Positions 50,323 to 61,521 of a stretch of 64,000 nt of DNA are shown here, piece by piece. A program made the position numbers and the translations under genes. Source of the stretch: Glutamicibacter nicotianae (GTDB lineage: Bacteria > Actinomycetota > Actinomycetes > Actinomycetales > Micrococcaceae); the NCBI RefSeq assembly GCF_006539525.1, contig NZ_BJNE01000001.1:372001-436000 (forward strand). Reading direction: 5' to 3'. Every line of letters starts with the position of its first letter. Positions within the stretch are counted from its first letter, which is position 1. A model generated the notes under the pieces. That model searched no databases. It was not told the DNA's origin and worked only from the letters and a program-made list of their open reading frames with translations.

Positions 50323-50946
50323 ATGATGACCACGACCCAGACGCCTATTAATGCATTGATCCTGGTATGCACCCTCTCCCCCTCGCCCAAGGCCTCCAGC
50401 AGCGATTTGCTGGCCCGGCAGGTGGCGGCCGAATTCAAGGAGCACCAGGTGTCCACCGAGATCCTGCGCATTGCCGATTTCAATGTGAAGCCCGGGGTGC
50501 TCAAGGACATGGGAGACGGCGACCAGTGGCCGGCGATTCGGCAGAAGCTGCTGTCCGCGGACATCCTGGTGCTGGCCACCCCGATCTGGGTGGGCCACCC
50601 CTCCAGCCTGGCCCAGCGGGTGCTGGAACGGCTCGATGCCGAGCTGTCGGAAACCGACGAGCAGGGCCGCCCGATCCTCTTCGGCAAGGTCGGCCTGGTG
50701 GCAGTGGTGGGCAATGAGGACGGTGCGCACCACGTGATCGCGGATCTGGGCCAGGGCTTGTCCGATGCCGGGTTCACGCTGGCGGCCCAGGGCTCGACCT
50801 ACTGGGTGGGGCAGGCCATGCACACCACCGACTACCAGGACCTGCAGCAGACCCCGGAGGTCACGGCCAATGCCACGGGCATTGCCACCCGCAACTCAGC
50901 CCATCTGGCGCGGCTGCTCAAGGCCAGCCCCTACCCTGCCGGATAG
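50323..50946 (+). CDS. NADPH-dependent FMN reductase/flavodoxin-family protein
   Basis: A 207-residue flavodoxin-fold protein. The FMN phosphate loop is at CTLSPSPKASSSDLLAR (residues about 16-32) and the second flavin contact at TPIWVGHPSSLAQRVLERLD (about 86-105). Such proteins are quinone or azo reductases or supply reduced FMN. It begins 46 bp after the cyclodeaminase gene on the same strand and precedes the helical protein/oxidoreductase pair by about 120 bp. It could serve as an electron source for the latter, but nothing proves that. Confidence 0.87.
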   Translation: MMTTTQTPINALILVCTLSPSPKASSSDLLARQVAAEFKEHQVSTEILRIADFNVKPGVLKDMGDGDQWPAIRQKLLSADILVLATPIWVGHPSSLAQRVLERLDAELSETDEQGRPILFGKVGLVAVVGNEDGAHHVIADLGQGLSDAGFTLAAQGSTYWVGQAMHTTDYQDLQQTPEVTANATGIATRNSAHLARLLKASPYPAG

Positions 50947-51067
50947 CCGCCGAAGGCTGGGTGCAGCCTGCAGATCAGCGGTGAGCCATTGGCCTGCGGC
51001 GGCCGGTGCCCTAGCGTTCGAGCCAGCAGAAGACTGCAACCGCTTTCGAGAACTAAGGACGGGCACG

Positions 51068-51598
51068 ATGCCGAACAACACCATCGACCAGATGACCCTG
51101 CACAGGTACTTGGGCGAGCACCTGCTGGGTTCCGAATCGGGGCTGAACCATTTCAAGGCGGCGCACCACACCTGGGCGGGCACGGCGTACGCCGACCGCT
51201 TCGAGTCGCTGCACCAGCAGGTGAAGGACGACCAGGCGGATCTGAAGCGGATCATGGACCGGCTGGGATGCAGGCAGCGTCCGCTGGCCCGCCTCCTGGC
51301 ACCGGTGGCCAAGCTCGCCGGTCATGTCAACCCGTTCAATCCGCTGCGGATGCGCAAGCTAGCCGCCGCGCAGGTGCAGCTCGATGTGCTCACCGGACTG
51401 CTCAATGCCAAATTGCGCATGTGGCAGACGCTGCTGCTGATGCTGCCCCACGATCCGCGCCTGGACCAGGCGCTGCTGCAGGACCTGTCGCATCGTGCGG
51501 AGTCGCAGATCAGCCAGCTCAAGGCGCTCAGCGATGAGACCTGGCCCGAGCGCTTCGCCCCGCAAGAACACGAGAACCAGGAGGAACGCCGCCGATGA
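51068..51598 (+). CDS. Unrecognised helical protein coupled to FAD oxidoreductase
   Basis: A 176-residue, probably all-helical soluble protein. Segments with regular His/Glu/Asp spacing (LHRYLGEHLLGSESGLNHFKAAHHTW, then FESLHQQVKDDQADLKRIMDRLG) recall ferritin-like four-helix proteins, but no complete di-iron ExxH pair is clear, so I do not assign it. AAGGAC precedes the ATG at 51068. The gene end overlaps the following oxidoreductase start by 4 nt (ATGA), which suggests coupled expression and possibly a complex. Confidence 0.65.
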   Translation: MPNNTIDQMTLHRYLGEHLLGSESGLNHFKAAHHTWAGTAYADRFESLHQQVKDDQADLKRIMDRLGCRQRPLARLLAPVAKLAGHVNPFNPLRMRKLAAAQVQLDVLTGLLNAKLRMWQTLLLMLPHDPRLDQALLQDLSHRAESQISQLKALSDETWPERFAPQEHENQEERRR

Positions 51599-53022
51599 GC
51601 AATGGGAAGGCGAATGTCGTCGGGGCCGGCCCCAATGGGCTGGTCGCCGCGGCGGTGCTTGCGCAGAACGGTTTCGATGTCCAGGTCTTCGAGCGCAATG
51701 CCCATCCGGGCGGCGCCGCGGCCTCCGGCAGCACGCTGGGCGAGGGCACCATTGTGGATTTGGGAGCTGCCGCCCACCCCTTCGCCTACGGCAGCCCGGC
51801 ATTCGCGCATTTCGACCTGGCCGGCCACGGCCTGCAATGGGATTTCCACGATTACCCGCTGGCCCACCCGCTGGACGACGGCCCCTCGGTCTTCCTGCAC
51901 CAGAGCCTGGACGCCACCAGCAGGCAGTTCCCCGCCGATCGGAAGATCTGGCGGCTGCTGCATGGGCCGCTGGTGCGCAATCCGCAGGAGATCCTGGAGA
52001 ACGCCACCAGCCCGCTGCTGGGCATCCCGCCGCATCCGGTGCTGATGGCGCGCTTCGGGCTGCGCTCGCTGCCGCCGGCGAAGCTCCTGTCCGCCGCGGC
52101 CTTCCGCACCCGGCAGGCCGCGGCGCTCTTCGCCGGATCCAGCGCGCATTCCATGCTGCCGCTCGTCCACCCGTTCACCTCGGGATTCGGCGTGCTTTTC
52201 GGTGCCCTGGGCCAGTCCTGGGGGTGGCCGGTGGCGCACGGCGGCACCGGCAGCATTATCGACGCGCTGCTGCGGGTGCTCGATGGGTTGGACGTGCAGA
52301 TCCACACCGGGCACCAGATCACCAGCCTCGCCCAGCTTCCCGATGCCGAACTCACTTTCCTGGATGCCACGCCCCGCCAGGTGGTGCAGATCGCCGGCGG
52401 CCAGCTTCCGCCACGCCTGCGCCGCCGGTTCGAACGCTGGCGCTACGGCACCGCCGCCTTCAAGGTGGACTACCTGCTCGATGGCCCGATCCCCTGGCAG
52501 GATGCGCGCACCGCGCGGGCTGGCACCGTGCATGTGATCGGCGATGCCGCCGAGCTGGCCGCCGCCGAGCACCAGGTCGCCTCCGGGAAAATGCCCGACC
52601 GCCCCTTCGTTATGGTGGTCCAGCCTTCGAGCGCCGATGCCTCGCGCGCCCCGGCCGGCCGCCACGTCATCTGGTCCTACGCCCACGTGCCCCAGGGCCA
52701 TGCCGGGGATGCCGGTGCGCTCATCGATGCGCAGATCGAGCGGTTCGCGCCGGGCTTCAGGGACCGGATCGTGCAGCGGGTGGACACTTCCCCAGCGCAG
52801 CTACAGGCCTGGGATCCCAACCTGGTCGGCGGCGATATCGGCGGCGGATCACTGTCCGGCACCCAGCAATTCTTCCGCCCCTCCGCTTCGCCCAACCCAT
52901 ATTCGCTGGGCGTTCCGGGGTTGTACCTGTGCTCCTCTTCCACGCCTCCGGGCGGCGGGGTGCATGGGATGGCCGGCTGGCATGCGGCGCATCGGGCACT
53001 GCGCGAGCTTGGGCGCACCTGA
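51595..53022 (+). CDS. Phytoene-desaturase-like NAD(P)/FAD oxidoreductase
   Basis: A 475-residue flavoprotein of the CrtI/amine-oxidase group. The N-terminal dinucleotide fold is VVGAGPNGLVAAAVLAQNGFDVQVFERNAHPGG (residues about 8-40), and the C-terminal FAD contact segment is GLYLCSSSTPPGGGVHGMAGWHAA. It is most similar in layout to CrtI-related proteins lacking carotenoid partners. No carotenoid genes (crtE, crtB) are in the window, so the substrate is unknown. It is translationally coupled to the helical gene. Confidence 0.87.
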   Translation: MSNGKANVVGAGPNGLVAAAVLAQNGFDVQVFERNAHPGGAAASGSTLGEGTIVDLGAAAHPFAYGSPAFAHFDLAGHGLQWDFHDYPLAHPLDDGPSVFLHQSLDATSRQFPADRKIWRLLHGPLVRNPQEILENATSPLLGIPPHPVLMARFGLRSLPPAKLLSAAAFRTRQAAALFAGSSAHSMLPLVHPFTSGFGVLFGALGQSWGWPVAHGGTGSIIDALLRVLDGLDVQIHTGHQITSLAQLPDAELTFLDATPRQVVQIAGGQLPPRLRRRFERWRYGTAAFKVDYLLDGPIPWQDARTARAGTVHVIGDAAELAAAEHQVASGKMPDRPFVMVVQPSSADASRAPAGRHVIWSYAHVPQGHAGDAGALIDAQIERFAPGFRDRIVQRVDTSPAQLQAWDPNLVGGDIGGGSLSGTQQFFRPSASPNPYSLGVPGLYLCSSSTPPGGGVHGMAGWHAAHRALRELGRT

Positions 53023-53332
53023 GCCGATGATCAGCTTCCTTGGTTGCCGGCGATGGATCAGCGGCACGCAACTACATGGGCGAACCGATCCCGCGCAGCC
53101 CAAGCCAATTCCTGCAATAAAGCTTTTGACTAGCAAAAAATAAAGTCTGGGAATTTCCTCAGAATCGGGACGTGCGCACAAGAACTTGGTGGGCCAATGA
53201 TAATTTCATACCAAGTCCCCACCGCTTGGCGTATGGTCGACAGCGTCACTGCAGGCCATGCCGCCGCCTCAGGGGCCGGAAAACTGCATAGTTGAAGTGA
53301 GAAGTATCGTCTAGAAGTGGAGGGTAGTTCAC
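53023..53332. other. Intergenic region before the 53.3 kb gene
   Basis: About 310 bp with a local drop in GC from 53095. An inverted repeat, ACTTGGT (53184-53190) with ACCAAGT (53210-53216), is present. No gene or terminator is clear; the promoter of the next gene should lie here. Confidence 0.5.
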
Positions 53333-53776
53333 ATGCCAGGAAGGCTAGTCAGATCCCAGACCGCGGTGCGCGTTGCTGAGTTGCTGGGATCACGCGAGGG
53401 CAGAAGACATTTGGGCAATTATGGCTGGACCCAGGGAATGCCAGTGGTCATGACACAGCCTGAGGAATCGCTCGACGATGTCATGGGCCTGGTTTCGGTG
53501 CATAAGCGGCCGGTGCTGGTCGCGATGCTTGAAAAGCAGACCGAGGAGCTGAAATTCTTGCACATTTCCGAGCCTTCTCCAGTCTTGGAAGTGGTTCCGG
53601 CCAGTGCGCCGCGCAGCACGATCAAGGATTTGTTCGCGCAGGCCGAGCACAGCGGCATGGCCGCATTCCGCGTAAAGTACTGGCAGTACAGTGCGGTCGC
53701 CCACGCGGTGCCCCATTTCGACGCGAATGCTCCAGGACACAGGCACGCCGCACAGGAGTCCGGCAGCAGCTTTTAA
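53333..53776 (+). CDS. Unrecognised 147-residue protein
   Basis: A 147-residue soluble protein of no family I recognise. GGAGGG precedes the ATG. It is mixed alpha/beta with no Cys, no signal peptide and no known motif; the C-terminus is His/Gly/Ser-rich (HFDANAPGHRHAAQESGSSF). It is convergent with the glycosyltransferase operon and ends at a strong bidirectional terminator. Being a single gene with a good ribosome site, it is probably real. Confidence 0.65.
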   Translation: MPGRLVRSQTAVRVAELLGSREGRRHLGNYGWTQGMPVVMTQPEESLDDVMGLVSVHKRPVLVAMLEKQTEELKFLHISEPSPVLEVVPASAPRSTIKDLFAQAEHSGMAAFRVKYWQYSAVAHAVPHFDANAPGHRHAAQESGSSF

Positions 53777-53795
53777 CAGCTGGCAACGCTGCCAC

Positions 53796-53851
53796 TGGCA
53801 CAGCCCCCTGGTAATCTGCGCACCGCGCAGTTCACCAGGGGGCTGTTTCCA
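53796..53851. terminator. Bidirectional terminator
   Basis: ACAGCCCCCTGGT (53800-53812) pairs with ACCAGGGGGCTGT (53834-53846), enclosing an inner CTGCGC/GCGCAG stem; TTCC follows. It separates convergent genes. Confidence 0.88.
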
Positions 53852-53880
53852 TGCCAGGGACCAGGTCTGCTTGCTGGATG

Positions 53881-54615
53881 CTAGCCGGTGTTGAGCATCC
53901 GGTGTTCCAGCGCTGCCAGATAGTCCGCGAAGCCTTCGTCCAGCCGGCCGCGCAGGCGCCCAGAGGTGGTTGCCTGCAGCCGGGCCGTGGCCTGGACCCG
54001 GTAGCCGGCATGGCGCAAGGCTTCCACCAGTGCCACATCCTCCCGGGCCGCCAGCGGCTCGAAGCCTCCGACAGCCAGATAGGCGGCAGCGCACACGCCG
54101 AAGTTCGCGCCGTGGATATGGCCATGCCCCTCCACCGGTTGGTATTCCTGCTGCCAAAGGGCGAAGAGGTGCTCATCGAGTTCGCTGCGGTCCGGTTCCA
54201 CGGTTCCCGCTACCGCATCTGCCCCACCGGCGTGCAGGCGGGCAAAGCCCTGAAGCCAATGCTCTGGGACGCAGGTATCCGCGTCGGTGCTGGCCAGCCA
54301 GATGGCGCCCGGGTCGCCGGCCGCAGCGAGCAGGCCAAGGGCATGGCGTGCTCCGGCGGCCCGGCTCGCACCGACATTGCCGAAGCCCACCTGCTGCACG
54401 CTGATCCGCCAATCCTCGCTGGCATGCCGCCCGGCGATCTGCGCCGTGCCGTCCGTGCAGCTGTCGGCAACCACGATAACCCTGGACTGGATCTGCGGGC
54501 GGGCACACGCCAGTCGGTCCATGGCCGCGCGCACCGAATCCAGGCAACGGCCCAGGCGTTCTTCCTCGTCGCGGGCCGGGATGATCACCGCCATGGCCGC
54601 CAGCTGGCTACCCAT
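53881..54615 (-). CDS. Family 2 glycosyltransferase
   Basis: A 244-residue GT-A glycosyltransferase. MAVIIPARDEEERLGRCLDSVRA opens the nucleotide-sugar fold, and the metal-binding DxD is in ASTDADT (Asp111, Asp113). No membrane helix is visible, so it is probably cytoplasmic. The ATG at 54615 overlaps the stop of the upstream gene by 8 nt (ATGGGTAG), so it is translated together with it. Third gene of the acyl-CoA-dehydrogenase-like/PIG-L-methyltransferase/GT2 operon; acceptor unknown. Confidence 0.9.
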   Translation of the reverse strand: MGSQLAAMAVIIPARDEEERLGRCLDSVRAAMDRLACARPQIQSRVIVVADSCTDGTAQIAGRHASEDWRISVQQVGFGNVGASRAAGARHALGLLAAAGDPGAIWLASTDADTCVPEHWLQGFARLHAGGADAVAGTVEPDRSELDEHLFALWQQEYQPVEGHGHIHGANFGVCAAAYLAVGGFEPLAAREDVALVEALRHAGYRVQATARLQATTSGRLRGRLDEGFADYLAALEHRMLNTG

Positions 54616-55978
54616 GGGCACCAGCTGGCTTGCGCAGTATTTCAAGCAGGAAATCGGCTTCGCGATGCTCCACGATGCGCTCCCACCCCAGCTGGCCCGC
54701 CATGCGATGGACTTCTTCCCCGTCCAGCGGCCAGCCTTCAATGGGATGCAGCCAATGGCAGACCACCAGCTCTCCGCCGGCTTGAAGTGCCGCCGCGCTG
54801 GCGGCGAGCACCTGCTCCAGTTCGTCGGCGGCCAGGAAGTAGCCCATCTCGCTGAGCACCACCAGCTGCAAGCTGCCCGGCTCCAGTTGCGGAAATTGCC
54901 GGGGCACCGTGGCCTGCAGCAATTCGACGTGGTCCATTCCGGCCACGGCCCGCCTCGCCTGGGCCAACGCGGTGGCGCTGGCATCGACCGCCAGCAGGCG
55001 CGTGCTGCGGCGGGCCAGTTCGGCGCTCTGCACACCGATGGAGCAGCCCAGCTCCAGCACCGCCGCATACCGTTCCTGTGGCAGGCAGGCGAGCAGGATC
55101 TGCTGCTTGCGCCGCTCATAGCGGCTGCTGCGGTATTCCCACGGATCCTCGCGCTCCCCGTAGAGCTCGTCGAATACTGCCGGAGCCGATGCGGCATCCC
55201 TGTGGCCGGGCCAGGTGGCGCGGAAGATCTCGGCACCGCGGGAAAAATGCTGCAGGAAGCCTTCGCTAAGGAGGACTTCGTCTCCTGGCAGGGCGGACAG
55301 CGGCGTGGTTTGGGAACGGTGGGCCTCCAGGGCGCGGGCCTTGGCATCCGTGCTGGAAGCATCCAGGGCCAGCCGGAACCAATGCCTGAAGCTGGGCTGC
55401 CGGTCCGGTTGCGCCCAGTGCCAGAACCAGATGGGGAATTCCAGGTGGCAGGCATTGTGCGCCAGGGCGCAGTCCGCGGCGAGCAGACCGAGGATTTCGT
55501 GGTCCGGGTGCCCGTCGCCGCGGTAGGTGCTGGCGATTAGGCAGCGCTCGCCGGCGTGCTGCTCAAGGGCTGCGCGGATCGGCTCCTGCTGCGCTGCGAG
55601 TTTCCCGTCGTCCAGGCCCAAGCAGTGCAGATGCAGCGTTCCGCTGCGCGGTCCCTGTGCGCGCAGCATGTCCATGGCCTCGGCCAGTTCGGCGTGGCGC
55701 AGCGCGGCCAACTGGGCCGCGGAGTGTGTGGTGGAGTCCGGATGCGATGCTTCCCCGAAGCTGCAGACGATCACGTGGACATCGGTCCCCTGGCCAAGCG
55801 CCATGCGGATCAGCCCTCCGGCTCCCAGCGTCTCGTCATCCGGGTGGGCGGCCAGAACAATCACCGATGCCATTGCGTGGAAGAGCTTCTCCGGATCCAG
55901 TGCGGCGATCTGCTCAAGCCCAGCTTGCTGCCAGCAGCTTGCAGAGGTTCCCTGGTCCTGATGCGTGAAGTTCACCAT
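54608..55978 (-). CDS. Fused PIG-L deacetylase and class I SAM methyltransferase
   Basis: A 456-residue two-domain enzyme. The N-terminal PIG-L (LmbE) deacetylase has AAHPDDE (45-49) and GDGHPDHE (157-160), the usual zinc-site pieces. The C-terminal methyltransferase begins about residue 270, with SAM motif I VLELGCSIG (307-315) and the LSEMGYFL segment also found in NodS-like N-methyltransferases. Expected reaction: remove an N-acyl group from a sugar and then methylate, perhaps the exposed amine (inference). It overlaps the preceding gene by 7 nt and the following by 8 nt. Confidence 0.9.
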   Translation of the reverse strand: MVNFTHQDQGTSASCWQQAGLEQIAALDPEKLFHAMASVIVLAAHPDDETLGAGGLIRMALGQGTDVHVIVCSFGEASHPDSTTHSAAQLAALRHAELAEAMDMLRAQGPRSGTLHLHCLGLDDGKLAAQQEPIRAALEQHAGERCLIASTYRGDGHPDHEILGLLAADCALAHNACHLEFPIWFWHWAQPDRQPSFRHWFRLALDASSTDAKARALEAHRSQTTPLSALPGDEVLLSEGFLQHFSRGAEIFRATWPGHRDAASAPAVFDELYGEREDPWEYRSSRYERRKQQILLACLPQERYAAVLELGCSIGVQSAELARRSTRLLAVDASATALAQARRAVAGMDHVELLQATVPRQFPQLEPGSLQLVVLSEMGYFLAADELEQVLAASAAALQAGGELVVCHWLHPIEGWPLDGEEVHRMAGQLGWERIVEHREADFLLEILRKPAGAHG

Positions 55979-57033
55979 GCGCTGCCACCTTCCTTGCCGG
56001 CACGGTCCGCAATCAGCTGGCCCAGCGCCGCGTCATCGCGGGCCGCGTGGTGCTGGCGCAGATAGATGCCCAGGTCTGCTGCGCGCCGCGCATGCTCCTC
56101 ATCGGCGGTCAGCGGGCCCGGGCCGGTAGACTCGCCGCTGAGCTGCAAGATGCGGGTGCAGGCCCAGGCCACCTGGCCGCGGATCCGATAGGCGGCAATG
56201 GCATCCAATTCTCCGTCATCCGCCAGCCTGGCTGCATGTTCCAACAGCGCGGCGCTGCCGGCGAGCAAGCGGTCCGCTTCGCCGAGCCAAGCAAGGGCCA
56301 GCTGATCCGGGGTACGCGCTTGGGCGCTGCGCTGCAGATGGCGGTAGATTCCCACCGCTCCCCCGAACCAGCAGGCGGCAACACCGACGCCGCCAACGGC
56401 GAACCCCGGGCGGGACAGGTACCAGCCAGCGTCTTGCACCGGTTGGGCCGGTACTCCGGTGAAGTCCACGGAACCGCTGGGCAGCTGGGCCATGCCACGG
56501 CTGACCCAGGCACCTGTCGCCGGTTCAACGCCGGGGTGACGCAGGGAAACCATGAACAAGCGGTCTCCCTCCGGTGTTCGGGCGGTGACCAATGCATGCG
56601 TCAGCGCGGCGGCCAAGGAGCACCAGGGCTTCGTGCCATTCAGCTCCCACTCTCCGCCGGATTGGCGGACCGCTTCCAGCGTGGTGGTGGGCGACTGCGC
56701 GGCGAAGACGCCCCATGAGGTGCCTGCCGGCCACGGCATGCCCGCCTGGCTCAGGATTCCGGCTGCATCCAGATGCGGTTCCAGCGTCCTGGCCGCAACC
56801 AGGTCGGTGGCGGCCACGGACGCCAGCAGCTCCCAGAGCCGCTGCGTCTGGCCAGCGGCTGGGACCGGAGGATCTTCCCCCGAGCCTTCCAGCACGCGCA
56901 GCATCGCGTCCGGGTTGCCCTCGCAGCGCACGGCGGCCGCACGCACCGCTTCTTCGGCGCCCCACCATAACTCGCTGTTGCGGGGGCGGGATCCTCGTTC
57001 GGCTGCACTAAACGACACCGGCCGCTGGTCCAT
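55972..57033 (-). CDS. Acyl-CoA-dehydrogenase-like flavoprotein
   Basis: A 353-residue protein of the acyl-CoA dehydrogenase fold, a little short for the family (about 380). The central FAD/substrate segment GGEWELNGTKPWCSLAAALTHALV is present. The C-terminus reads IYLRQHHAARDDAALGQLIADR; the usual catalytic YEG context with its Glu is missing, as in flavin monooxygenases of this fold and other divergent members. AAGGAG precedes the ATG at 57033. First gene of an overlapping three-gene operon. Confidence 0.8.
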   Translation of the reverse strand: MDQRPVSFSAAERGSRPRNSELWWGAEEAVRAAAVRCEGNPDAMLRVLEGSGEDPPVPAAGQTQRLWELLASVAATDLVAARTLEPHLDAAGILSQAGMPWPAGTSWGVFAAQSPTTTLEAVRQSGGEWELNGTKPWCSLAAALTHALVTARTPEGDRLFMVSLRHPGVEPATGAWVSRGMAQLPSGSVDFTGVPAQPVQDAGWYLSRPGFAVGGVGVAACWFGGAVGIYRHLQRSAQARTPDQLALAWLGEADRLLAGSAALLEHAARLADDGELDAIAAYRIRGQVAWACTRILQLSGESTGPGPLTADEEHARRAADLGIYLRQHHAARDDAALGQLIADRAGKEGGSAW

Positions 57034-57293
57034 CAGCTCTCCTTCTCTGCGCGGAACTTTTGGCCAGTCTAGGTCACGGCCCATTCTTGCCCGGCCCAGC
57101 TGAATGACTCCTGATAACCGCAAAGGACCACGCAACGCAGCGAGCCAGCTTATGGGATTGGTCGCCGCGAAGGCGGCATTGTGATGATCTGCAAAGTTGG
57201 CCGCAAGCAAACTTTCAGCTTCGGGACCTCGATTTGCAATCTGCCCTATAGTTCAAATTGTCAGTAACCAGATCCACACAGGAGGTAAGAATC

Positions 57294-57485
57294 ATGGGAA
57301 TTGGAGACAAGATCCAGAACAAGGCCCAGGAAGTATCTGGCAAGGCCAAGGAGGCCTACGGCGATGCCACTGATAATGAGCGTCTGCAAGCCGAAGGCGT
57401 GAAGGACCAGGCCGCAGCCAAGGCAAAGCAGGCAGGTGAACACGTCAAGGACGCCGCCAAGGATGTCAGAGACGACCTGTCCTAA
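57294..57485 (+). CDS. CsbD family stress protein
   Basis: A 63-residue hydrophilic protein (MGIGDKIQNKAQEVSGKAKEAYGDATDNERLQAEG). CsbD-family proteins are induced by general stress; their mechanism is not known. A GGAGG ribosome site lies 9 nt before the ATG. It is highly charged, helical and likely disordered until bound. It stands between two strong hairpins, next to a PNPOx-like and a catalase gene. Confidence 0.93.
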   Translation: MGIGDKIQNKAQEVSGKAKEAYGDATDNERLQAEGVKDQAAAKAKQAGEHVKDAAKDVRDDLS

Positions 57486-57496
57486 ACCGCACTACC

Positions 57497-57534
57497 GGCT
57501 ATGCCCCATGGATGCGTATCCATGGGGCATAGCT
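57497..57534 (+). terminator. Terminator after the CsbD gene
   Basis: A 16-bp perfect stem, 57498-57513 with 57518-57533, around GCGT. It ends the short csbD-type transcript. Confidence 0.9.
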
Positions 57535-57559
57535 CTGCGCCAGGCAATGTGCACAGCGA

Positions 57560-57603
57560 TACGGCCGCTGCTCCGGGAATTCGGAGCAGCGGCCGTTTGC
57601 GGT
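57560..57603. terminator. Second terminator hairpin before PNPOx gene
   Basis: A perfect 15-bp stem, ACGGCCGCTGCTCCG (57561-57575) with 57582-57596, followed by TTTGCGGTTTTT. It serves the minus-strand PNPOx gene and backs up the CsbD terminator. Confidence 0.87.
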
Positions 57604-57613
57604 TTTTGGCGCC

Positions 57614-58090
57614 CTAGAGTTCGACGCTATTCGAGTCCCCGGGCTCGGCGGGTTTTCCGGTGAGTTTCTGCTTCACCCAGCCGGCCATCAGGCTCGCTGC
57701 CCCACCGGGGTTCTCCCAGTATTCAGCGGAGTCGGCATCGATGCGCAGCAGCACAGTCTGCGCAGATTCCGGGCCTTCGCTGGCGAAGGTCTCCACCGCG
57801 GCGTTCCACAGCTCCTTCTTCTTGGCGACATCGAGCACCACCTCGGCGTGGCCGCTGACCGACATCCACGCCTTGGATCCGCTGAACGCGGCATTGACCA
57901 GTCCCTGGGCCCGGATTTCCTTGACAATCCCGGCGTCGGCGGCAGAGAAGAACCAGAGCTCTCCTTCGTCGGTGGCTTCAATCAGCGTCAGGGGGCGGCT
58001 GGCCAGCCGTCCAGCGCTGTGGGTTGTGACCATGGCGATCCGCATGTCCTTGATGATGCTGATGACTTTGCTTGCTTCGTCGTTGGCCAT
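57614..58090 (-). CDS. PNPOx-like general stress protein
   Basis: A 158-residue split-barrel FMN-binding protein of the pyridoxamine-5'-phosphate-oxidase-like family, similar to general stress protein 26. Seen: AMVTTHSAGRLASRPLTLIEATDEGELWFFS, and VSGHAEVVLDVAKKKELW with WENPGG near the end. The start is the ATG at 58090 with AAGGAG. It is probably a flavin-dependent oxidoreductase or FMN carrier; the exact substrate is unknown. It lies among other stress genes. Confidence 0.88.
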   Translation of the reverse strand: MANDEASKVISIIKDMRIAMVTTHSAGRLASRPLTLIEATDEGELWFFSAADAGIVKEIRAQGLVNAAFSGSKAWMSVSGHAEVVLDVAKKKELWNAAVETFASEGPESAQTVLLRIDADSAEYWENPGGAASLMAGWVKQKLTGKPAEPGDSNSVEL

Positions 58091-58192
58091 GATGAGCTCC
58101 TTTGTCTTGGAATAATCTGGTCGTTTCACACGCTACCGAGGTGCCGGCCCGCGCCAAGGGGCGCCCAGGCGATTGCCAGCTTCGGCTCCTGC

Positions 58193-59323
58193 TCAGCTTT
58201 CCGGGTTCCGTCTGGAATCCGGATCCGCTTGCTCTTCGGCGTCCAGCTCGCTGGCAAAGCGCAGCTGCCGCCCGTCGCTGATGTCCTGCTCTTCTTCTTC
58301 CTCCTGCTTCATGCTGGCCTTGGTATCCCGCGGCGGAAGCTGGACCGAGCGCTCGGCGGCAATCCCCGCCTGCAGCTGGCGCCCGCGCTCGGCTTCCGCG
58401 TCGAAGACCGCGCCGAACAGCAGCGACAGGTTGGCGATCCACAGCCACAGCAGCAGCACGATGACCCCGCCGATGGCACCGTAGGTCTTGTTGTAGTTGC
58501 CGAAGTTCGAAACGTAGAAGAAGAAGCCGACGGTCGCCACCGCCAGCACGAGCAGCGCGATGGCCGAGCCCAGGCTGATCCAGCGGAACTTCGGTTGCTT
58601 CACATTGGGAGCCCCGTAGTAGAGCACGGCCACCAGCACAATCGCGCACAGCACGATCACCGGCCATTTGGCGATATTCCAGATCGCCACCGCGCCCTCG
58701 CCCAGCCCCATGGCGTTGCCCAGCGCCTGGGCCAGAGGACCGGAGACGATCAGCAGCATCCCCAGCACGGACACGGCCACAAGAAGTACCAGTGTCAGCA
58801 GCAGCATCAGCGGGCGGAGCTTGTAGAACGGGCGGCCTTCGTCCACCTCATAGATCTGGTTCATGGCCCGTCCGAACGTCCCGACATACCCCGAGGCGCT
58901 CCATAGCGCACCGAGCAGACCGGCAATCAGCGCAAAGCCTGCCGACGGGGCCGACGCCAGCTGCTCGATGGGCTGGCGCAGGGTTTCGACCACTTCCTTG
59001 CTGGCCAGTTCCTGGATCAGCGAAAGGATGTTGCGGGTCATGTTCTCCGCCTGGCCGGCAACTCCGAGCAGGGAGACTACCGCCAGCAGGGCCGGGAAAA
59101 TGGAGAGCATCGCGAAATAGGTCAGCGAGGCCGCCATATCCGTGCATTTCTTCCGGGAGAATTCCCTGATGGAGCGCTTGGCCGCGTACTTCCATGACCG
59201 CGGGTGCATGTCCGGAGGGGAATCGGGCTTGGATCGGGCATCGGGTGCCGGAGCACGCCTGGCTTTCGCAGCCGTTGCGCCCGCGCTGCCTTTTCCATCA
59301 TGGCTCTCGGATTCTGAAGTCAT
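58193..59323 (-). CDS. YihY/BrkB-family membrane protein
   Basis: A 376-residue membrane protein with about six hydrophobic helices, flanked by hydrophilic termini (an N-terminal region of about 50 residues and a C-terminal Glu-rich region with a run of Glu near residue 350). The YihY signature is visible: MAASLTYFAMLSIFPALLAVVSLLG and NYNKTYGAIGGVIVLLLWLWIANLSLLFGAVFDAE. Formerly annotated as ribonuclease BN, which it is not; the function is unknown. The ATG at 59323 is preceded by GAGGAG. Confidence 0.92.
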   Translation of the reverse strand: MTSESESHDGKGSAGATAAKARRAPAPDARSKPDSPPDMHPRSWKYAAKRSIREFSRKKCTDMAASLTYFAMLSIFPALLAVVSLLGVAGQAENMTRNILSLIQELASKEVVETLRQPIEQLASAPSAGFALIAGLLGALWSASGYVGTFGRAMNQIYEVDEGRPFYKLRPLMLLLTLVLLVAVSVLGMLLIVSGPLAQALGNAMGLGEGAVAIWNIAKWPVIVLCAIVLVAVLYYGAPNVKQPKFRWISLGSAIALLVLAVATVGFFFYVSNFGNYNKTYGAIGGVIVLLLWLWIANLSLLFGAVFDAEAERGRQLQAGIAAERSVQLPPRDTKASMKQEEEEEQDISDGRQLRFASELDAEEQADPDSRRNPES

Positions 59324-59418
59324 GTGCAAATCTCCTCAACAATTACTTGTGCCAGCGGGCAGCGCTGGCGCAGGCGCACCAGCTGATGCACCTGCCGCGC
59401 CGCACCCGCCTGGCTGCG

Positions 59419-61521
59419 CTAGTCCTTGACCGGGAAGCGTTCCCAGGCGCGGTGGGTGGACAGCAGCTGTTGCGCGCTGTCGGCAACCCCGTCTACCTCG
59501 ACAAGTTCAATGCCTGGGGCATCGTCTTCCAGGCCGACTGCCTGGAGCAGGCCATCGGAGAGCCCGTCAAGGGTGATGATGGCCTTGTTGTGCCGGTAGG
59601 CCTCCGCGACCAGCAACGCCACGCGCGGGTCGATGGGAACCCCGCCTGCCCCCAGGGCGCCGGCCTTGGCATCCAGCGCAACCGCGGCGTCCGGGGCCGG
59701 CGGCAACGGGCCGATGAGCACCAGCGCATCGAATTCGATGGAGCGCGCCGTCAGGTAGGTGCGGTCAACGGGCAGGTCCGGGGCCACTTCGCCGCCGGAG
59801 GCCGAAACGAGCAGCGGGGACATGCCCCGTTCGGCCAGCGCCTGGGCTATTGCCGGTACGTGCTGGTGGTTTCCGCTGTTGAACACCACCCCGACCTTGC
59901 GCCCGTCCACCGGCCAGGCTTTTCCGATCTGCGACAGCGCGGGGCTCGCCACCGGGTCATCCAGCTGCACTGCGGCCGGTGCCGGCAGGCCCAGTGCCTG
60001 GGCCACCCCGGAGGCCAGCTGGGTATCGATCTTCGCCAGGCATTCCACCTGCCGCTGGCGGATCGCGGTATCGGTGCACTTGCCCAGTTCAAAGGAGTAG
60101 GCCTGCTGCACGTGGGCGCGCTCCACGGCCGAGAGGCTGATGTAGAACAGGCGGGCCTGGCTGTAGTGGTCCGAGAAGCTGGCCGGCTCGGAACGCACCT
60201 TCTTCCCGGAGGCCACAGGCTGCGGGAAGTCCAGTGGAGGCTGCTGGCCAGATAGAACCTGCGACATGTAGGGGCAGCCGCCATCCAGCGAGTTCGGCTT
60301 GTACGGCGCGATGCCCTTGGGCACCCGGTGCTGGTGGAAGCCGTCGCGGAACATGTCATTGACCGGCGAGTCCGGCGAGTTGATCGGGATCTGCGCGAAG
60401 TTCGGCCCGCCCAAGCGGGTCAGCTGGGTGTCCAGGTAGGAGAAGAGCCGCGCCTGCAGCAACGGGTCGTCGCTGATATCGATGCCCGGAACCAGATGCC
60501 CGGGGTGGAAGGCCACCTGCTCGGTCTGCGCAAAGTAGTTCTCCGGGTTGCGGTCCAGCACCATCTTGCCCAGCGGCTGGACCGGAGCCAGCTCTTCTGG
60601 GACGAATTTCGTCGGATCCAGCAGGTCGATGCCTTCGAAGACCGCTGTGCCGTCATCGGGGAAAATCTGCACGCCCAGTTCCCATTCGGGGTAGGCGCCG
60701 GCATCAATGGCTTCGGCCAGATCGCGGCGGTGGAAGTCCGGATCCGCGCCGGCGGCCAGCTGGGACTCTTCCCAGGCCAGCGAGTGCACGCCGAGCTTGG
60801 GCTTCCAATGGAACTTCACCAGGGACGCTTTGCCCGCCTCGTTGACCATGCGGAAGGTGTGCACGCCGAAGCCTTCCATCATGCGCAGCGAGCGGGGTAT
60901 CGCCCGGTCGCTCATCTGCCACATCACATGGGCTTGGGCGGGGGTATGCAGGGAGACGAAATCCCAGAAGGTGTCGTGGGCGGATTGCGCCTGGGGGATC
61001 TCGGTATCGGGATGCGGCTTCGCGGCGTGGACGAGGTCCGGGAACTTGATCCCGTCCTGGATGAAGAACACCGGGATGTTGTTGCCCACCAGATCGAAGA
61101 TGCCTTCGTTGGTGTAGAACTTCGTCGCGAAGCCGCGGGTATCGCGGGCCGTGTCCATCGAACCGCGGGATCCGACCACGGTGGAGAAGCGGACGAAGAC
61201 CCGGGTCTGGCGTCCCGGCTTGAGGAAGTCCGCACGGCACAGCTTGCCGGCATTGCCGTAGCTGGTGAATGTGCCGTGGGCGCCGGCACCGCGCGCATGG
61301 ACAACGCGCTCGGGAATCCGCTCGTGATCGAAATGCATGATCTTCTCGCGCAGGTGGTGGTCCTGCAGCAGGGTGGGCCCCCGCTCGCCGGCTTTCAGCG
61401 AGTGATCGGTGTCGTTGACTGCAGCGCCCTGGGTCGTCGTCAGGAACTCGTTGTCCTGTCCGGGGCCGGACAGTACCGGCTTCTGTCCGTGAGTTGATGG
61501 CTGTTGTGGTTCGCTGGTCAT
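59419..61521 (-). CDS. katE: Large-subunit catalase (KatE/HPII type)
   Basis: A 700-residue heme catalase, the large-subunit clade. Catalytic His75 (ERVVHARGAGAHGTF), Asn in the NNIPVFFIQD segment, and the heme-ligand Tyr in RLFSYLDTQ (about 361) are all present. A C-terminal flavodoxin/GATase-like domain (about 545-700, KVGVVFNSGNHQHVPAIAQAL) is characteristic of this clade. AAGGAG precedes the ATG. It is the main peroxide-removal enzyme of this stress region. Confidence 0.95.
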   Translation of the reverse strand: MTSEPQQPSTHGQKPVLSGPGQDNEFLTTTQGAAVNDTDHSLKAGERGPTLLQDHHLREKIMHFDHERIPERVVHARGAGAHGTFTSYGNAGKLCRADFLKPGRQTRVFVRFSTVVGSRGSMDTARDTRGFATKFYTNEGIFDLVGNNIPVFFIQDGIKFPDLVHAAKPHPDTEIPQAQSAHDTFWDFVSLHTPAQAHVMWQMSDRAIPRSLRMMEGFGVHTFRMVNEAGKASLVKFHWKPKLGVHSLAWEESQLAAGADPDFHRRDLAEAIDAGAYPEWELGVQIFPDDGTAVFEGIDLLDPTKFVPEELAPVQPLGKMVLDRNPENYFAQTEQVAFHPGHLVPGIDISDDPLLQARLFSYLDTQLTRLGGPNFAQIPINSPDSPVNDMFRDGFHQHRVPKGIAPYKPNSLDGGCPYMSQVLSGQQPPLDFPQPVASGKKVRSEPASFSDHYSQARLFYISLSAVERAHVQQAYSFELGKCTDTAIRQRQVECLAKIDTQLASGVAQALGLPAPAAVQLDDPVASPALSQIGKAWPVDGRKVGVVFNSGNHQHVPAIAQALAERGMSPLLVSASGGEVAPDLPVDRTYLTARSIEFDALVLIGPLPPAPDAAVALDAKAGALGAGGVPIDPRVALLVAEAYRHNKAIITLDGLSDGLLQAVGLEDDAPGIELVEVDGVADSAQQLLSTHRAWERFPVKD

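Follow-up and report, generated by a model that had tools for sequence, protein, structure and literature searches.

A Conserved Three-Gene Cassette with Nod-Like Domains in Glutamicibacter nicotianae and a Candidate Amino-Sugar Glycoside Pathway

The gene cassette

The three overlapping genes described here lie on the minus strand of a 64,000-nucleotide stretch of the Glutamicibacter nicotianae genome (assembly GCF_006539525.1, contig NZ_BJNE01000001.1, positions 372,001 to 436,000), which we call the window and within which all positions are counted; the genome itself is 3.55 Mb. The first gene (55972-57033) encodes P0001, a 353-residue protein with the fold of the acyl-CoA dehydrogenases (ACADs) and a Pfam match to Acyl-CoA_dh_M (39.5 bits). 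The second (54608-55978) encodes P0002, 456 residues long, in which Pfam recognizes a PIG-L de-N-acetylase (about residues 1 to 265) joined to a NodS-like S-adenosylmethionine (SAM) methyltransferase (MT; about residues 267 to 456). The third (53881-54615) encodes P0003, a probably soluble family 2 glycosyltransferase (GT2) of 244 residues (Pfam Glycos_transf_2, 57.9 bits). The Pfam scores of P0001 and P0003 both exceed their cut-offs. We refer to the set as the cassette.

The stop and start codons of adjacent genes overlap by 7 nucleotides (nt) at the ACAD-like/PIG-L-MT junction (ATGGTGA, 55972-55978, minus strand) and by 8 nt at the PIG-L-MT/GT2 junction (ATGGGTAG, 54608-54615, minus strand). 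Read directly from the sequence, strand, coordinates, and overlaps are exactly those given in an initial annotation of this DNA. The ACAD-like protein starts at the ATG at 57033, after AGAAGGAGAG; the mechanically called open reading frame (ORF) begins further upstream, at a TTG. Among the named loci of the search described below, of which the nearest are from Arthrobacter sp. MYb214 (92%, fused protein) and Glutamicibacter, the 7-nt overlap recurs in L004 to L008 and L017 and the 8-nt overlap in L004, L007, and L008. Full-length homologs with similar junctions are found in other genera, and because of these homologs and of motifs that are intact, the overlaps are more than a chance arrangement. 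The three genes are probably transcribed as one unit; scans for sigma-70 promoters and terminators returned no match, and an Rfam scan of 53000-58500 returned no RNA element.

Distribution and gene order

Using the fused protein as query, we obtained 48 named loci (actinomycetes, 16; pseudomonad phylum, 32), a sample biased toward loci that have this protein. PIG-L and MT form one protein in 16 of 16 actinomycete loci, and the GT2 is adjacent or fused in the same 16; two Citricoccus loci and one Micrococcus locus (L009, L015, and L019) carry PIG-L, MT, and GT2 in a single protein of 711 to 724 residues. PIG-L and MT are separate genes in all 32 pseudomonad-phylum loci, 28 of which show a 4-nt overlap between the two, and an overlap of that length is also present at the ACAD/PIG-L junction in 28 of the 31 loci where it is measurable. 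L022 has no ACAD match, and in L070 the match is split across two frames. In the window and in those named loci in which the respective gene was detected, the characteristic motifs are intact throughout: KxWCS in 48/48 ACAD-like proteins, the zinc/catalytic motifs HPDDE and HxDH in 49/49 PIG-L domains, and TDAD in 46/46 GT2 proteins. A corresponding count for the methyltransferase (17/49) came from too narrow a pattern and was not used.

Because of the bias in the fused-protein search, the ACAD-like alignment was searched alone. It matched 27 of 296 actinobacterial genomes, in 26 of which PIG-L and/or the methyltransferase is present on the same contig, no more than about 1 kb away (adjacency was judged from match coordinates, and for G184 from the fetched region), and 30 of 349 pseudomonad-phylum genomes, in 28 of which one or both lie in the 1.5-kb flanks. 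The initial annotation had proposed a single functional unit and had named a search for the three-gene order across these two groups as the check on it; the unit is supported by the conserved set, the overlaps, and the fusions across phyla. Both chromosomes and plasmids carry the cassette, and the phyla represented are Actinomycetota, Pseudomonadota, and Deinococcota (the plasmid survey gave 62 records with a methyltransferase match, seven of which were read for annotation). The ACAD-like gene is present in 9 of the 18 genomes of the genus, counting this one, and the cassette is therefore accessory. These sequence comparisons support the reading of the three genes as one functional unit that has apparently spread horizontally. 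Mirror-tree correlations (0.96 to 0.97 among ACAD, PIG-L, and MT; 0.91 with the glycosyltransferase) fit co-inheritance and are confounded by species relatedness, so they are given no weight.

Two deacetylase families at one position

The fusion protein scores above the Pfam cut-offs for PIG-L (79.3 bits), Methyltransf_25 (47.3 bits), and NodS (40.3 bits, cut-off 24), in agreement with the fused deacetylase and methyltransferase of the initial annotation, and its Protein Data Bank (PDB) matches include 4isc and NodS (3ofj). Among relatives, the NodS Pfam score reaches 78.8 bits in L060 and is 21.3 bits in the triple fusion of L015; NodS is not listed for L009. In NCBIfam, every model listed for the three window proteins (the best 25 of 30 for the fusion) stays below its cut-off. 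For the NodS equivalog, which has a cut-off of 300 bits, the window protein scores 44 bits and four relatives score 48.4 to 90.4 bits. The closest solved structure to the PIG-L protein of L045 is diacetylchitobiose deacetylase.

We compared 20 actinobacterial regions, namely, 17 from the 27 genomes with an ACAD match and three in which only the methyltransferase had matched (G041, G195, and G290). Eleven have PIG-L, seven have instead a polysaccharide deacetylase of family CE4, none has both, and two have neither; the region of L059 begins at a contig end, beyond which a PIG-L gene could lie. The CE4 gene adjoins the ACAD gene in six of the seven CE4-type regions and the methyltransferase gene in the seventh, L076. 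Queried with the CE4 protein of L060, the 74 loci L004 to L077 gave matches in the seven CE4-type regions only, and the CE4 model had no match in the pseudomonad-phylum loci with ACAD matches or in the loci tested for stress-type neighbors. In L060, the CE4 protein (the one scanned) has NodB as its best NCBIfam model, at 133.7 bits and below the cut-off of 240, and the methyltransferase has NodS as its best model, at 90.4 bits. This methyltransferase has a relative with 64% identity on a plasmid of Rubrobacter indicoceani, which carries, in this order, genes for a CE4 deacetylase, an ACAD, the methyltransferase, an FAD oxidoreductase, and a glycosyltransferase; FAD/NAD oxidoreductase matches are present in five of the seven CE4-type regions as well, the query's own included. 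That two unrelated deacetylase families occupy the same position argues for N-deacetylation as the function that is needed there.

L152, L153, and L154 each have an additional PIG-L gene near the cassette. Two records labeled Acinetobacter phage MD-2021a (H86 and H87; 232 and 306 kb) contain a PIG-L gene whose product is 69% identical to that of an Acinetobacter plasmid; these records are possibly plasmids mislabeled as phage. A methyltransferase match with 44% identity was found on a plasmid of the cyanobacterium Nostoc sp. UHCC 0926 (H54).

The ACAD-fold protein

The AlphaFold model of the ACAD-like protein (pLDDT 89) has the ACAD fold, with Foldseek E values down to 2.7e-13. The initial annotation had placed an acyl-CoA-dehydrogenase-fold flavoprotein at the head of the operon; fold and first position hold, but the catalytic glutamate of the dehydrogenases is not conserved. 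TdsC and DszC rank first among the fold matches, DnmZ 11th, and KijD3 23rd, with true ACADs, i.e., dehydrogenases, from rank 14 on at similar scores; identity to the TdsC/DszC-type matches is about 20%. A single-sequence search of the PDB has TdsC as the best match, and in the profile alignment the CS(G) stretch of the family recurs in DszC, TdsC, and MsuC. Three observations speak against an oxygenase: a profile search of the PDB was led by cyclohexanecarboxyl-CoA dehydrogenase (9e-11), followed by TdsC (1.2e-9) and then DszC and MsuC; hhalign gave 2e-10 for seven ordinary ACADs taken from this genome and 2.8e-9 for three DszC-like proteins; and distant members, among them those of L063 and Deinococcus radiodurans, have FASG in place of KxWCS. 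Fold and profile do not decide between oxygenase and dehydrogenase, because ordinary ACADs and DszC-like proteins score about equally well.

In acyl-CoA dehydrogenases the catalytic glutamate sits in an EGT motif near the C terminus or on another helix. In 24 cassette proteins the EGT column, read just beyond the end of the hhalign match by extending the alignment without gaps, holds serine in 15, histidine in 7, and aspartate and glutamate in 1 each, compared with glutamate in six of the seven ordinary ACADs (L138 is the exception). E85 is the sole glutamate among the invariant columns of the family, and Arg326, Gln327, and His329 are invariant across the 24 proteins. From sequence and model, the enzyme is more likely a flavin monooxygenase than an acyl-CoA dehydrogenase, with flavin binding and the reaction predicted. 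That it is an ordinary acyl-CoA or acyl-ACP dehydrogenase, supplying an unsaturated acyl chain to the amino sugar, we consider improbable. Public records do annotate it so, Pfam detects the ACAD middle domain, many ACADs are among the fold matches, and the profile comparisons slightly favor them; against this stand the column just described, the absence of an acyltransferase or CoA ligase within the unit, and the monooxygenases at the top of the fold ranking. With no acyltransferase in the unit and no conserved catalytic glutamate, the acylated part that the initial annotation allowed for in the product finds no support.

On a Deinococcus radiodurans plasmid (L192:1175-3514), an ACAD-like domain occupies residues 428 to 774 of a 779-residue protein, after an N-terminal part of about 420 residues; PIG-L and methyltransferase genes are nearby, with a helicase gene between. 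Pfam and PDB searches gave no confirmation of the N-terminal part as a glycoside hydrolase, and that assignment was not used.

Genomic neighborhoods

The stress-type neighbors of cassettes include trehalose synthesis, catalase, CsbD, and LigD/Ku genes. Stress-type proteins were matched in 8 of 20 pseudomonad-phylum loci and in 0 of 18 controls (Fisher p of 0.0035, which is indicative only, since the 25 query proteins, some of them loosely stress related [SDR, PfpI, BrkB, and GH15], were picked after neighbors had been seen). The 20 tested loci are two thirds of the 30 ACAD matches in that phylum, and the 18 control regions come from contigs with a cassette match, 16 of them from the tested genomes. 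In a mixed set the figures are 46 of 76 loci against 0 of 20 controls, or 35 of 65 once the 11 loci that supplied queries are left out; small divergent proteins escape the search, the CsbD of the window itself among them.

An Acinetobacter ursingii plasmid has, within 14 kb, genes for catalase, a haem-oxygenase-like iron enzyme, DUF2171, ACAD, PIG-L, MT, glycosyltransferase, and a major facilitator superfamily (MFS) transporter, together with otsA and otsB. Two Comamonas plasmids have the order otsA-ACAD-PIGL-MT-GT-otsB, in L158 and L164 otsB-otsA lies immediately upstream of the cassette, and a Legionella lytica plasmid has otsB-GH65-PIGL-MT-GT plus an ACAD-like protein annotated as hypothetical. 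A Cupriavidus plasmid carries GlgE, PIG-L, catalase, PA2169, ACAD, MT, GT, and topoisomerase IB; CsbD is near the cassette on two Pandoraea plasmids, and catalase, further glycosyltransferases, and PA2169 are near it on a Sphingobium plasmid. In Deinococcus NW-56 the order is ACAD-PIGL-MT, with the glycosyltransferase on the opposite strand and no stress gene named in the stretch. Since the cassette adjoins trehalose genes in several lineages, a sugar-based protectant, or regulation shared with trehalose, is plausible. Overall, the genomic context points to stress protection, a role outside that proposed in the initial annotation; we saw nothing pointing to symbiosis. The haem-oxygenase-like iron enzyme encoded on the Acinetobacter plasmid is matched within the stretches of four Pseudomonas loci (L021, L023, L025, and L027).

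In the window, a divergent gene for a CsbD-like protein (57294-57482, plus strand; Pfam CsbD, 64 bits) lies next to the cassette and outside the pathway. Farther on are three minus-strand genes of stress type recognized by Pfam, for a pyridoxamine-oxidase-like protein (57614-58129), a BrkB/YihY protein (58193-59329), and a large catalase (59419-61521). Downstream, the ORF list has a plus-strand gene convergent with the cassette (53333-53776). An amino-oxidase-like FAD protein (51595-53022) has relatives that adjoin the cassette in L011 to L014, and a small protein without a Pfam match (51065-51598) has relatives in L012 and L014 (Pseudoclavibacter), in both cases in the other orientation. The window scan also found an FMN reductase (50323-50946) 3 kb from the cassette. 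A defense function was considered and set aside, as PADLOC gave a methyltransferase-domain match only (mads_2, 40.9 bits).

A candidate pathway

We lean, by a slight preference, toward reading the cassette as a dedicated biosynthetic unit, apparently spread horizontally, whose product is a cytosolic glycoside of an N-methylated amino sugar, formed under stress. In this scheme the GT2 would transfer an N-acetylated sugar, most likely N-acetylglucosamine (GlcNAc), onto a small acceptor; the PIG-L domain would then take off the N-acetyl group; the fused NodS-like domain would methylate the freed amine, i.e., N- rather than O-methylation; and the ACAD-fold enzyme would oxidize the product with its flavin, more likely as a monooxygenase. 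The glycoside might protect the cell in drying or oxidative stress. The structure model of the GT2 (pLDDT 95.7) has the GT-A fold, and its fold search gave generic GT-A matches that indicate neither donor nor acceptor.

A cytosolic compound fits best, because hydropathy shows no membrane-like stretch in any of the three window proteins and flippase, polysaccharide polymerase, and acyltransferase are each named in at most one of the 14 annotated stretches (15 with that of Paraburkholderia; plasmid annotation is incomplete). The same two facts argue against the competing idea that the cassette decorates a surface or secreted oligosaccharide or glycolipid, such as a capsule, an O-antigen, or a Nod-factor-like signal, and so do the neighbors, which are catalase, trehalose, and repair genes and not envelope genes. 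We regard decoration as unlikely, although some observations fit it. On the Sphingobium plasmid (L194), a family 4 glycosyltransferase (GT4) and two further annotated glycosyltransferases, one of which (339 residues) has no Pfam match, precede ACAD-PIGL-MT-GT; to judge by the names of structure matches, CE4 relatives act on chitin and peptidoglycan; and in Acinetobacter and Deinococcus NW-56 an MFS transporter is encoded in the vicinity of the cassette.

Other observations sit poorly with a stress-linked cytosolic glycoside made by one compact unit. The extra Sphingobium glycosyltransferases suggest a longer sugar chain in that lineage. In the 32 pseudomonad-phylum loci the GT2 gene is adjacent on the same strand in 12, on the opposite strand in 8, distant in 9, and absent from the stretch in 3. 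The ACAD match stands alone in G008 (1 of 27) and in the two weakest pseudomonad-phylum matches (2 of 30); a Paraburkholderia plasmid has MT-GT only, with ACAD and PIG-L not annotated; and on the Cupriavidus plasmid, catalase and PA2169 separate PIG-L from the other cassette genes. Neither deacetylase is present in L058 and L063 (2 of 20 actinobacterial regions), and L076 pairs CE4 with the methyltransferase and has no ACAD match. Thirty of the 76 loci lack any stress family, including all seven CE4-type regions, and neighbors may share regulation without a common pathway.

The glycoside pathway can be extended to a class of stress metabolites, in which the glycoside is built perhaps on trehalose or a related sugar, its methylamine is oxygenated to a radical-scavenging hydroxylamine or nitrone, and deacetylases of two unrelated families have taken over one and the same step in different lineages; in this full form the proposal is speculative and rather improbable. 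The protein families are known, and their combination in an amino-sugar glycoside pathway, with Nod-like steps, an ACAD-fold enzyme, and a stress setting, is apparently undescribed; among the matches listed in a search of the open-access literature there was no description of the cassette. If the glycoside reading is true, amino-sugar chemistry of the Nod type would have a part in surviving stress as well, and a function would be given to a protein group now annotated as acyl-CoA dehydrogenase. The few genes and the soluble-looking window proteins make the product directly searchable.

Relation to known systems

DtpC and KatE have been shown to protect drying Acinetobacter, DtpC being described as a haem-oxygenase-like diiron enzyme (PMC13232832); the words acyl-CoA, deacetylase, and glycosyltransferase are absent from that paper. 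The A. ursingii plasmid resembles the DtpC-KatE operon in having a haem-oxygenase-like iron enzyme (Pfam Haem_oxygenas_2) and a catalase within about 7 kb of the cassette, the likeness to DtpC being one of description only.

The ACAD-like protein shares its fold with DszC/TdsC and DnmZ/KijD3, and the CSG stretch with DszC, TdsC, and MsuC. DnmZ and KijD3 oxidize amines of amino sugars. The cassette protein differs in its low identity to these enzymes and in that ordinary ACADs score about equally; unlike the case for DszC/TdsC, no reductase gene was seen in most cassettes, the search for one having been limited to the CE4-type regions.

Mycothiol and bacillithiol synthesis opens with a GT4 glycosyltransferase (MshA or BshA), after which a PIG-L enzyme (MshB or BshB) deacetylates the GlcNAc glycoside. 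The cassette follows the same logic of glycosyl transfer and PIG-L deacetylation, and the product could on these grounds be a similar redox cofactor, with an N-methylated glucosamine and a part oxidized by the flavoenzyme. The weak matches to the MshB, BshB1, and BshB2 models and the catalase among the neighbors agree with this, yet the scores fall far below the equivalog cut-offs (35 of 224.35 bits for MshB, 32 of 195.25 for BshB2, and 32 of 182.5 for BshB1), the glycosyltransferase is a GT2 and not a GT4, a methyltransferase and an ACAD-fold enzyme are added, and the annotations of the stretches read list no cysteine ligase. We find such a cofactor very improbable.

The parallel drawn in the initial annotation, with NodC, NodB, and NodS, holds in part. 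NodC is a membrane-bound synthase; the window GT2 is small, and its highest 19-residue hydropathy of 1.44 is below that of a membrane stretch. The window deacetylase is of PIG-L type and not the CE4 type of NodB, the scores are under the Nod equivalog cut-offs, and the cassette adds an ACAD-fold enzyme and stress-type neighbors; NodA is not named in the annotated stretches read, in which no search aimed at it was made. What the cassette has in common with the Nod set is a GT2, an amino-sugar deacetylase, and a methyltransferase that passes the NodS Pfam cut-off, so that Nod-like chemistry of glycosyl transfer, N-deacetylation, and N-methylation is well supported at the level of sequence. In L060, of the lineage where CE4 stands in for PIG-L, the deacetylase and methyltransferase match NodB and NodS, respectively, better than any other NCBIfam model.

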